A DNA stretch of 64,000 nucleotides, from NCBI RefSeq assembly GCF_022808325.1, contig NZ_JALGCL010000002.1, forward strand, positions 373,016 through 437,015, in the 5' to 3' direction. The notes beneath the pieces were generated by a model. It saw only the letters and a list, made by a program, of their open reading frames with translations. It was not told the origin of the DNA and made no database searches. Made by a program: the position numbers and the translations under genes. The stretch comes from Cognatiluteimonas sedimenti (GTDB taxonomy: Bacteria; Pseudomonadota; Gammaproteobacteria; Xanthomonadales; Xanthomonadaceae). Positions within the stretch are counted from its first letter, which is position 1. Every line of letters begins with the position of its first letter. This document shows positions 16,320 through 18,400 of the stretch, piece by piece.

Positions 16320-16348
16320 GGCGGATCCCGGGAGGCGTTCAGCCTGAG

Positions 16349-16357
16349 ATTGTGCCA
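16349..16357 (-). promoter_or_regulatory. Candidate extended -10 promoter of the cnoX-DUF4442 operon
   Basis: On the minus strand TGGCACAAT reads as an extended -10 element (TG, one base, CACAAT at 16354-16349). A start near 16342 would leave a leader of about 22 nt before ATG 16319. The -35 region is not clear. Confidence 0.4.
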
Positions 16358-16387
16358 GCGGCCCCCGAATCCAACCGCCACGACCAG

Positions 16388-16439
16388 ATGTAAAAAATAC
16401 TTGACATCACGACAACCGAATGTAATGTACACCTTACAT
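16388..16439 (+). promoter_or_regulatory. Promoter and ATGTAA/TTACAT operator boxes of the membrane protein-XRE operon
   Basis: TTGACA at 16401-16406 is a perfect -35 box, and TAATGT at 16423-16428 (16-bp spacing) is the likely -10. Three copies of one hexamer surround it: ATGTAA at 16388-16393, ATGTAA at 16420-16425 and its inverse TTACAT at 16434-16439. The last two form a dyad with an 8-base spacer that overlaps the -10 box. The sites sit exactly where a repressor would block RNA polymerase, and the operon's third gene encodes a small HTH protein, so autoregulation is inferred. The unusual AT-rich patch contrasts with its GC-rich surroundings. Confidence 0.65.
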
Positions 16440-16456
16440 CGAGATGGGGGTTGTCC

Positions 16457-17086
16457 ATGTCACTGCATCGCTGGGGAATCGCCGGGCTGCTGGCCGGCGC
16501 GGGAGTCGCGTTCTGGCTGCTGCTGGCCGGGCCGTCGAGGTTGCTTGGCGTGGATGCCGGGCAGGCAGGCACTGCGTTGCTGGTGACGGTGGCCTGGGTG
16601 TCGATGTACCGGGTTTCGCGGCTGCCGGGCGACGAACTCGGCGCAGCCGCGTCGCCGGCGGAATGGAAGGCCTGGATCGGCGCCGGCTTCATGTTGGCCG
16701 CGATCGTCTACTTCCTGGCGAAGATCGAGGTGTTCGCGGCGGCCGGGGTATTCGCCGACGCCGATGCCAGCGCGGTGGCGCGCAACCTGGTGCTGTTGCT
16801 GGTCGCCTGGTCGGTCCTGTCCACGGTGCTCGCGTCGCGCTGGAAGGGCGCGGTCGAGGAAGACGAACGCGACCGCGCCATCGCAGCGCGCGCCGCCGCC
16901 TGGGGCCGTGGCGCGCTTGTGGTCGCGGTGATCATGCTGGCGGTGGCGCTGGGACTGTCGCCGGCATCGCGGCTGCAATGGGCGAGTCATTTCATGGTCG
17001 CCAACCTGCTGGTGTTGGCGGTGATGTGGGGCTGCCTGTTCGAGTACGCGGCCGGGGCCGTGCTGCACTGGAGGGCGCGGCGATGA
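16457..17086 (+). CDS. Hypothetical membrane protein, first gene of an XRE-controlled operon
   Basis: 209-residue integral membrane protein with about six hydrophobic segments. A cytoplasmic-looking loop EEDERDRAIAARAAAWGRG precedes the fifth segment and resembles the D-E-R-D-x-x-I motif of DUF2178-type proteins, which often sit beside small Cro/XRE regulators. ATG 16457 is chosen because GGGGG lies 6 nt upstream; a TTG at 16451 is less likely. It overlaps the next gene by 4 bases (ATGA). No enzymatic motif was seen. Confidence 0.82.
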   Translation: MSLHRWGIAGLLAGAGVAFWLLLAGPSRLLGVDAGQAGTALLVTVAWVSMYRVSRLPGDELGAAASPAEWKAWIGAGFMLAAIVYFLAKIEVFAAAGVFADADASAVARNLVLLLVAWSVLSTVLASRWKGAVEEDERDRAIAARAAAWGRGALVVAVIMLAVALGLSPASRLQWASHFMVANLLVLAVMWGCLFEYAAGAVLHWRARR

Positions 17087-17541
17087 GCAGGCTGCCCATG
17101 GGCATCGTGGAAATGGGCAAGCGCGAAGGCATGGCCTGGCTGGGTTGCGGCGCCGCGGTCCTGGCGTCGGCCTACCTGGGCTGGCTGCTGTTCGGGCATT
17201 GGCCGGACACGGGGTACTTCGAGGCGCGCCACGAGGCGCTCACGCAGCCGCTGTACATCGGCTTCAATGCCGTGATCTTTGCCGTCGTCGCCATGCAGCG
17301 CTGGCGCCCGCACGAGCCGCTTGCCGATGAGCGCGACCAGCGCATCGAAGGCCAGGCGGCGAAATTCGGGTTCTACGCGCTGGCGCTGCTGAACGTGGTG
17401 GCGGGCGTCGCCTTGCTGGGCGACCCGGGGTTGCCGGCACGGCTGGGCGTGGAATGGATGCGCTATTGCCTGCTGTGGATGGTGATGCTCGCGCTCGTGG
17501 TGTTCACCGGTTACCAGCTGTACCGCTACCGGCGCGGCTGA
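17083..17541 (+). CDS. DUF2178-like membrane protein
   Basis: 152-residue membrane protein with four hydrophobic helices. Between helices two and three is [19 protein letters not shown], matching the DERD..I..KA pattern of DUF2178-type proteins. The first gene of the operon has a similar loop, so the two may be distant paralogues forming a complex. It starts in an ATGA overlap with the upstream gene and ends in a TGATG overlap with the XRE gene. Function unknown. Confidence 0.82.
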
Positions 17542-17759
17542 TGGCCGGTACCCCGATCGACAACGCGATCCGCGCGCTGCGCGTCGTGCACGGCGACATG
17601 ACCCAGGAGGCGTTGGCGCGCGAATGCGGGGTGACGCGGCAGACGATCATCGCGCTGGAAGCCGGCCGCTACGCGCCGTCGCTGGAGCTGGCGTTCCGGA
17701 TCGCGCGTGCGTTCCGGGTCGGCGTCGAGGACGTGTTCCAGTGGAAGGAGGGCGCATGA
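17541..17759 (+). CDS. Small XRE/Cro-type HTH transcriptional regulator (YozG-like)
   Basis: 72-residue DNA-binding protein consisting of a single helix-turn-helix domain: [29 protein letters not shown] carries the first two helices and the recognition helix, and [19 protein letters not shown] the last helices. Such minimal regulators are typically encoded next to membrane proteins and repress their own operon. The likely operators are the ATGTAA/TTACAT boxes at 16388-16439. It overlaps its neighbours on both sides (TGATG before, ATGA after). Confidence 0.93.
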
Positions 17760-18400
17760 ACGGTTCACGGCTGGCACGCATGGGGATGCACGCCGGCTGG
17801 GTCGCCGGCATGGTGTTCGCCGTGGCGCTTTTGTGGCTGGGGGCGGTCGTGCCGGGCTACGAACACGCGCACATGCCGGTCAGCTTCCTCGGCATGCGCG
17901 GCGTGGCGCTGGCGCCGTGCTGGAACGTGGCCGGGTTCATCGTCCCGGGTCTGCTGGTCGCCTGGTTCGCGCTGTCGCTGCAGCCACCGCTGGGGCGCGA
18001 CGGCACCGGCGCGCAGGCCCGCATCGGTACCTGGCTGCTGCTGATCTCCGGGCTGGCATTCGCCGGCAACGGCGTGTTCGCCTACGACCTGGCCGAACCC
18101 GACGGCATGGCGTCGAAGCTGCACGTGGCGATGCTGACGATCGCGCTGCTCGGGTTCCTGCCGTCGGCGTTGCTGCTGGCGCTGGCACTGCGGCGCCGGC
18201 CGGCATGGCGCGCCCTGGTCGCGGGCGGAGCCTTGCTGGCGCTGGCGACCCTGGCCAGCGTCATGCAACGCATGGGCGACTGGCTGCCGCTGTTGCACGA
18301 CAACCCGGGCTACGCGCAGCGGGTCACGCTGGCGCTCTATTTCCTCTGGCTGGCGTTGGCGTCGCGGGTGGCGCTGCGCAGCGGGGCGACGCGCGGCTGA
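17756..18400 (+). CDS. DUF998-like seven-helix membrane protein
   Basis: 214-residue integral membrane protein with six to seven helices. The N-terminal pattern (a long first helix, then [33 protein letters not shown]) is characteristic of DUF998 proteins: a conserved loop resembling Y-S...P-V-S-xLG, then N-x-x-F near helix two. Function is unknown. It is the last gene of the four-gene operon, joined to the XRE gene by an ATGA overlap, and converges on the SemiSWEET gene with only 22 bases between the stops. Confidence 0.8.

Follow-up and report, generated by a model that had tools for sequence, protein, structure and literature searches.

The window analysed here, the whole stretch of 64,000 nucleotides from Cognatiluteimonas sedimenti, contains a four-gene operon (16457-18400, all genes on the + strand) whose promoter is overlain by two 20-bp dyads, and these dyads recur upstream of the same small regulatory gene in 67 genomes of the family. 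From these comparisons, the regulator encoded by the third gene, a 72-residue protein of the XRE type, very probably represses its own operon through the two predicted operators. We give a probability of roughly 0.55 to a fuller reading, followed as far as the membrane step, in which this CylR2-like self-repressor would receive its signal through a relay of membrane proteins that share a DERD loop.

Organization of the operon

The genes concerned are listed below, together with the divergent gene next to them.

16457-17086, + strand: TM1, a 209-aa membrane protein, the type A DERD protein, with six long helices in its model
17083-17541, + strand: TM2, a 152-aa membrane protein, the type B DERD protein, a distant paralogue of TM1
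17541-17759, + strand: HTH, a 72-aa Cro/C1-type (HTH_3) regulator, CylR2-like
17756-18400, + strand: DUF998 membrane protein, 214 aa
15441-16319, - strand: thioredoxin-TPR gene (by Pfam), divergent, the usual syntenic neighbour, outside the operon

Consecutive genes overlap by 4 bp (TM1/TM2, 17083-17086), 1 bp (TM2/HTH, 17541) and 4 bp (HTH/DUF998, 17756-17759). A previous sequence-only reading of this DNA had described four genes with overlaps of 1 or 4 bases, encoding three membrane proteins plus an XRE protein, and was correct in both respects. Its assignment of the genes to known DUF families holds for the fourth protein, which passes Pfam DUF998 (PF06197) with 47.1 bits against a cut-off of 30, but not for TM1 and TM2, which reach 15.2 and 17.8 bits against the DUF2178 (PF09946) cut-off of 22.8. 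At E<=0.01, DUF2178 was matched by 11 of the 27 members of an alignment of TM1 sequences (A1). TM2 also missed the MauE cut-off (23.1 against 27), and no NCBIfam model was found for TM1 or TM2 at E<=0.1.

Two dyads overlap the promoter

The predicted control elements upstream of TM1 are the following.

16388-16407, + strand: predicted operator O1, a 20-bp dyad ATGTAA-N7-TTGACAT, ATGTAAAAAATACTTGACAT; columns 1-4 and 17-20 invariant in 67 aligned sites
16401-16406, + strand: -35 hexamer TTGACA, within the right arm of O1
16420-16439, + strand: predicted operator O2, a 20-bp dyad ATGTAA-N8-TTACAT, ATGTAATGTACACCTTACAT; 32 bp from O1
16423-16428, + strand: -10 hexamer TAATGT (family consensus TAANNT), after a 16-bp spacer, in and beside the left arm of O2

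Three ATGTAA/TTACAT boxes had been noticed at this promoter. The literal boxes are there, since ATGTAA occurs on the + strand of the window at 16388 and 16420 only and TTACAT at 16434 (and at three other places), but a fourth half-site, TTGACAT at 16401-16407, had been overlooked, and with it the real unit becomes two dyads, 16388-16407 and 16420-16439, whose 32-bp distance corresponds to about three turns of DNA. In this predicted arrangement the -35 is covered by O1, and the -10 and the start region by O2. The perfect TTGACA attributed to the promoter lies at 16401, with two other occurrences in the window when both strands are counted, and the patch described as AT-rich is indeed so, as the GC fraction is 0.379 at 16380-16445 compared to 0.703 for the window, and a fraction of 1.6e-5 of the 66-bp windows is equally low.

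When the window was searched for the dyad pattern with up to one mismatch, O1 and O2 were the only matches, compared to 0.13 expected, and 2 of 100 shuffles also reached two matches. For both dyads taken as one pattern, with three mismatches allowed, O1/O2 was the only place matched on either strand of the window (0.00 expected). Across the own genome O1 and O2 are the only exact dyads, with one-mismatch matches at three further places.

The alignment of the 67 sites shows that the promoter itself belongs to what is conserved. At column 16, which holds the G of the O1 TTGACA, 66 of the 67 sites have G; this letter breaks the symmetry of the dyad and gives a perfect -35, and complementarity between columns 5 and 16 is accordingly limited to 13 sites. 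Column 41, located outside the dyad arms, is T in 64 of the 67 and completes the -10 TAANNT with its 16-bp spacer. As one of these letters is kept despite the dyad and the other outside it, the constraint includes the promoter. A generic scan for consensus promoters gave this promoter no score; its -10 agrees with TATAAT at 3 of 6 letters.

The predicted operators are conserved with the HTH gene

Conservation was examined in 296 whole genomes of the family, scanned with the joined two-dyad pattern at up to two mismatches and with the reversed pattern as a control. The pattern was found in 67 of the 296 genomes, at one site in each, and in 14 of 52 genera, and the reversed pattern had no match in any of the 296. 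An HTH orthologue, oriented so that the site matches, lies at most 3.4 kb downstream of every one of the 67 sites; a stricter HTH motif recovered 66 of these, missing the one in genome G085, which was seen by tblastn. Conservation of the box positions upstream of orthologous operons, which had been proposed as a check, was thus observed at all 67 sites. Moreover, the HTH protein itself (E<=1e-16) was detected in 98 of the 296 genomes, including all 67 with the pattern, so that the pattern is present in 67 of 98 genomes with the protein and in none of 198 without it (Fisher 1e-42, a value that ignores kinship). This comparison of sequences strongly supports the earlier proposal that the minimal XRE protein is autoregulatory. 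Pairwise identity among the 67 aligned sites averages 0.94 for the arms and 0.30 for the 12-bp spacer.

TM1 (E<=1e-10) was found in 59 of the 296 genomes, all 59 of which have HTH. The pattern is present in 50 of these 59 genomes, and another 17 pattern genomes, all with HTH, have no TM1 match, which indicates that the operator tracks the HTH gene and not TM1. The 59 named loci at which TM1 was found include representatives of Lysobacter, Pseudoxanthomonas, Luteimonas, Arenimonas and Thermomonas; 56 of them have at least one exact dyad and 39 have two or more, counts that may be one too low (locus L161). A larger set of 99 scored loci, made up of these 59 and 40 others with some genomes counted twice, was used for spacing: where exactly two exact dyads were present, they were 32 bp apart in 59 loci and 34 bp apart in 3. 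The regulator thus has a single predicted target in each genome, and its predicted 52-bp operator is defined at every base by the comparison of 67 genomes.

The regulator is a bare helix-turn-helix domain

HTH consists of little more than an HTH_3 domain (Pfam PF01381; 57.3 bits against a cut-off of 23, residues 10-64 of 72), and its nearest solved relatives are 9k3w (E 1.3e-13) and CylR2 (1utx; phmmer E 1.6e-8, residues 19-69). Small XRE genes beside uncharacterised membrane proteins are common. Restriction-modification control (C) proteins are likewise small XRE proteins whose own promoter contains two operators, though of a different sequence and spacing from O1/O2; no restriction-modification gene was noticed beside the operon. 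HTH matches the PADLOC Control_protein profile (E 7.4e-7), one of 16 PADLOC families that it matched, with HTH_VI as the best (5.8e-10) and capH and RmrA among the others. All 16 were read as general XRE similarity and a role in anti-phage defence was rejected; no PADLOC family was found for the three membrane proteins. A phage origin was likewise rejected, the membrane proteins having no PHROG match. Of 43 HTH sequences, 35 have a cysteine immediately ahead of the recognition helix; redox sensing through this residue was rejected, since loci L008 and L052 lack the cysteine and have both dyads, which makes it dispensable for the operator.

The DERD membrane proteins

The motif DERDxxI occurs in both TM1 (P0002, EEDERDRAI) and TM2 (P0001, LADERDQRI). 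The suspicion that the two proteins share this loop and are paralogues was confirmed by hhalign, which aligned the 27-sequence TM1 alignment A1 with TM2 at a probability of 92.9 and E 3.6e-7. The residues DERD, E69, G38 and W118 are invariant in all 27 aligned type A proteins. A structure search with an AlphaFold2 model of TM1 (mean pLDDT 83) found nothing in the PDB at E<=0.001, and the best Z of 7.3 in a further structure comparison is of a size that is uninformative for helical bundles. The DERD loop is probably cytosolic, as it and the C-terminus are rich in K+R (means of 4.8 and 2.8, versus 0.5-1.2 in loops 1, 3 and 5), an argument weakened by the mean D+E of 5.4 in the same loop, which exceeds its K+R.

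There are at least three types of DERD protein: A (TM1), B (TM2) and C, the last with about 150-165 aa and the motif xxEDERDxx. Divergent proteins of type C were seen at loci L088, L091, L092, L097 and L115, and the one from L097, the sole one tried, had no Pfam match. Counted by DER[DNE] motifs within hydrophobic surroundings, the number of DERD genes between operator and HTH in the 67 units is one in 43, two in 13, three in 3 and none in 8. Among these last eight units, G002 has a type B gene after HTH and G115 has a variant with DEHDRH.

Genes downstream of the regulator

What follows the HTH gene varies: DUF998, sometimes preceded by a BAAT_C-type hydrolase, and sometimes neither. A DUF998 gene lies within 3 kb in 43 of the 59 named TM1 loci. 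The protein encoded in the window is a helical membrane protein whose AlphaFold2 model has a mean pLDDT of 90, and no PDB match was found for this model at E<=0.001; in the extract of PMC10584675 considered here, DUF998 is reported to be structurally like Frag1/DRAM/Sfk1. We consider the chances about even that DUF998 is the effector of the module. An alpha/beta hydrolase with a hydrophobic N-terminus was seen between HTH and DUF998 at loci L011, L012, L113 and L178, and the one from L178 matched Pfam BAAT_C/Abhydrolase_1.

Comparison with known systems

The nearest studied system is CylR1/CylR2, the regulatory pair of the enterococcal cytolysin operon. In the extract of PMC3709268 considered here, CylR1 is a predicted membrane protein with three predicted helices that is needed for induction, and CylR2 is a protein of 66 aa that regulates an oppositely transcribed lantibiotic operon; according to the same extract, how such a minimal repressor receives its signal is not understood even for this pair. 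The pair is described again in an extract of a preprint on bibacillin (PMC11343131). As in CylR1/CylR2, a small Cro/C1-type XRE protein homologous to CylR2 is encoded beside a membrane protein. In contrast to CylR2, a single promoter here drives the membrane proteins, the regulator and the DUF998 protein, with two spaced dyads. The extract (PMC3709268) mentions no DERD loop for CylR1, whereas TM1 and TM2 both carry one.

A second comparison is with the LytTR Regulatory Systems (LRS) HdrRM and BrsRM, in which, in the extract of PMC6193735, an activator is associated with direct repeats upstream of the -35. The operon resembles LRS in combining a membrane protein and a soluble regulator in one self-regulated operon. 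The Pfam matches of the operon regulator include no LytTR model, HTH_3 being found instead, and there are no direct repeats just upstream of the -35, as the dyads overlap the -35 and the -10.

Literature searches returned nothing for DUF998 with helix-turn-helix or for DUF2178, the matches listed for YozG/YoaS were irrelevant, and neither CylR2-like terms nor, in a separate search, the letters of the boxes gave anything on this system among the matches listed. Thus, among the matches listed for its families, for CylR2-like regulators and for the box letters, we found no published description of the operon system.

Proposed mechanism and alternatives

In the reading that we prefer, a dimer of the 72-residue protein would bind at each dyad, at O1 over the -35 and at O2 over the -10 and start, and the two sites would be occupied on the same face of the DNA in a cooperative manner, keeping RNA polymerase off the regulator's own promoter. 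As HTH has no room for a ligand domain, the signal would have to come from a partner. By analogy with CylR1, we lean towards the DERD proteins as this partner; they would contact HTH through the DERD loop and, upon a change in the membrane or in a ligand, would take HTH off the operators. Release would then induce the DERD proteins, the repressor and a variable effector, which in this operon may be DUF998, and since the repressor is induced as well the response would be self-limiting. A membrane stress or development unit had been suggested, for which we found no support, as nothing in the analysis identifies the signal. Control of a bare HTH protein by a membrane protein becomes directly testable in this system, as natural variants exist with none, one, two or three DERD genes ahead of the regulator.

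The operators would also serve a homeostatic autorepressor, that is, an XRE protein that represses its own operon without any partner, the membrane proteins being cargo held at a low level. A 72-aa protein can set such a level without a ligand and, in addition, in 6 of the 67 units, which have the order operator, HTH, DUF998, no DERD gene was detected in the stretch from operator to HTH, so the operon need not include a DERD protein. However, 59 of the 67 units do have one to three DERD genes at this place, and in 39 of these 59 the last one overlaps the start of HTH by 4 bp (starts being set by distance from the motif). In the named TM1 loci the HTH gene is found at most 2 kb downstream of the TM1 match in 59 of 59 cases and within 60 nt in 45, a tighter association than cargo requires. 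As, moreover, the layout is repeated by a different membrane/XRE pair (see below) and CylR1 is required for induction in the extract of PMC3709268, we regard homeostasis without a partner as less likely.

A circuit of positive feedback, with membrane proteins restraining an activator until the freed HTH switches on the operon, has the same genetic logic as LRS, namely a regulator, a membrane inhibitor and repeats at their own promoter (extract of PMC6193735). It appears improbable for this operon, because the LRS repeats lie upstream of the -35 whereas dyads over the -35 and -10 are where repression is expected, and because the regulator is of the HTH_3 and not the LytTR kind.

That the boxes serve the divergent thioredoxin-TPR gene, the usual neighbour, whose start codon is 69 bp from the start of O1, and adjoin the operon by chance is very improbable, given that no site was found in the 198 genomes without HTH, that in G033, G085, G090, G178, G222 and G246 the site precedes an HTH unit and the 0.85-1.5 kb of flank covered contains no thioredoxin-TPR match, that this gene is about 1 kb away in G234 and about 0.7 kb in G023 and G119, and that the -35/-10 fit on the operon strand. 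By eye, letters within 16345-16385 (ATCCAA, GATTGTGCC) resemble a conserved thioredoxin-TPR promoter, seen next to O1 in several relatives; an additional effect of the HTH protein on the thioredoxin-TPR gene is therefore possible.

A similar membrane-protein/XRE pair elsewhere in the genome

The layout of the operon has a counterpart elsewhere in the own genome, at locus L002 (C3:199241-202426, minus strand). There, a small XRE protein 49% identical to HTH is preceded by a 190-aa membrane protein with DELQRQI, and the promoter contains two TGTCAAG-N4-CTTGACA dyads 44 bp apart. TTGACA again falls within the first dyad's right arm, here as part of the half-site itself. The plan is thus like that of the operon, whereas the half-site and the dyad spacing are different. 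A scan for the exact TGTCAAG dyad found it in 17 of 60 genomes, the own one included. In 16 of these 17, a dyad pair is spaced by 43-46 bp (44 in nine), often with one mismatch in one member, and these 16 pairs are followed by genes for a hydrophobic protein, whose loop resembles DELQRRI, and for a small XRE protein; no XRE motif was seen at one locus, L220.

A second pair with paired dyads of its own looks like a general design. We therefore tentatively propose, at somewhat less than even odds, an undescribed class of phosphorelay-free membrane signalling in Lysobacteraceae and beyond, in which a small CylR2-like XRE repressor and a membrane partner whose loop is acidic-basic (DERDxxI or DELQRRI) would go with a pair of dyads that overlie their own promoter at an almost constant distance, the half-site being particular to each subfamily (ATGTAA with a distance of 32 bp, TGTCAAG with one of about 44 bp). 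If so, a separate half-site per subfamily would allow several modules to work in parallel within a genome and without cross-talk. The second pair is a built-in specificity control for the first.

Exceptions and distant relatives

The two-dyad pattern was absent, at up to two mismatches, from 31 of the 98 genomes with HTH. Twenty regions from 19 of these 31 genomes were inspected, in addition to G008 and G255. Dyad pairs at other or nearby distances were present in four of the 20 regions (31 bp in G063, 33 bp in G091, 34 bp in G020 and G320), and G118, a more distant relative, has a pair at 21 bp. A single dyad with 9 or 10 of 10 letters was found in ten regions (G064, G172, G188, G215 C1, G162, G184, G035, G010, G133 and G195), and a dyad at 9 of 10 letters was absent in five (G122, G029, G215 C6, G135 and G240). 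G008 has no dyad and G255 has one.

In a class-wide search the HTH protein was found in 7 of 184 genomes. Two of these, L196 and L199, showed no motif by script. Beyond the family, a pair of exact dyads at a distance of 45 bp was seen in L195, followed by a membrane gene with DERE and an XRE gene, and L019 has three dyads (9, 9 and 10 of 10 letters) at 21-bp steps upstream of a DERD gene; the dyads of these two indicate that the half-site extends further than the 32-bp layout. Two ATGTAA dyads at a 21-bp step were also seen in L214, a distant relative.
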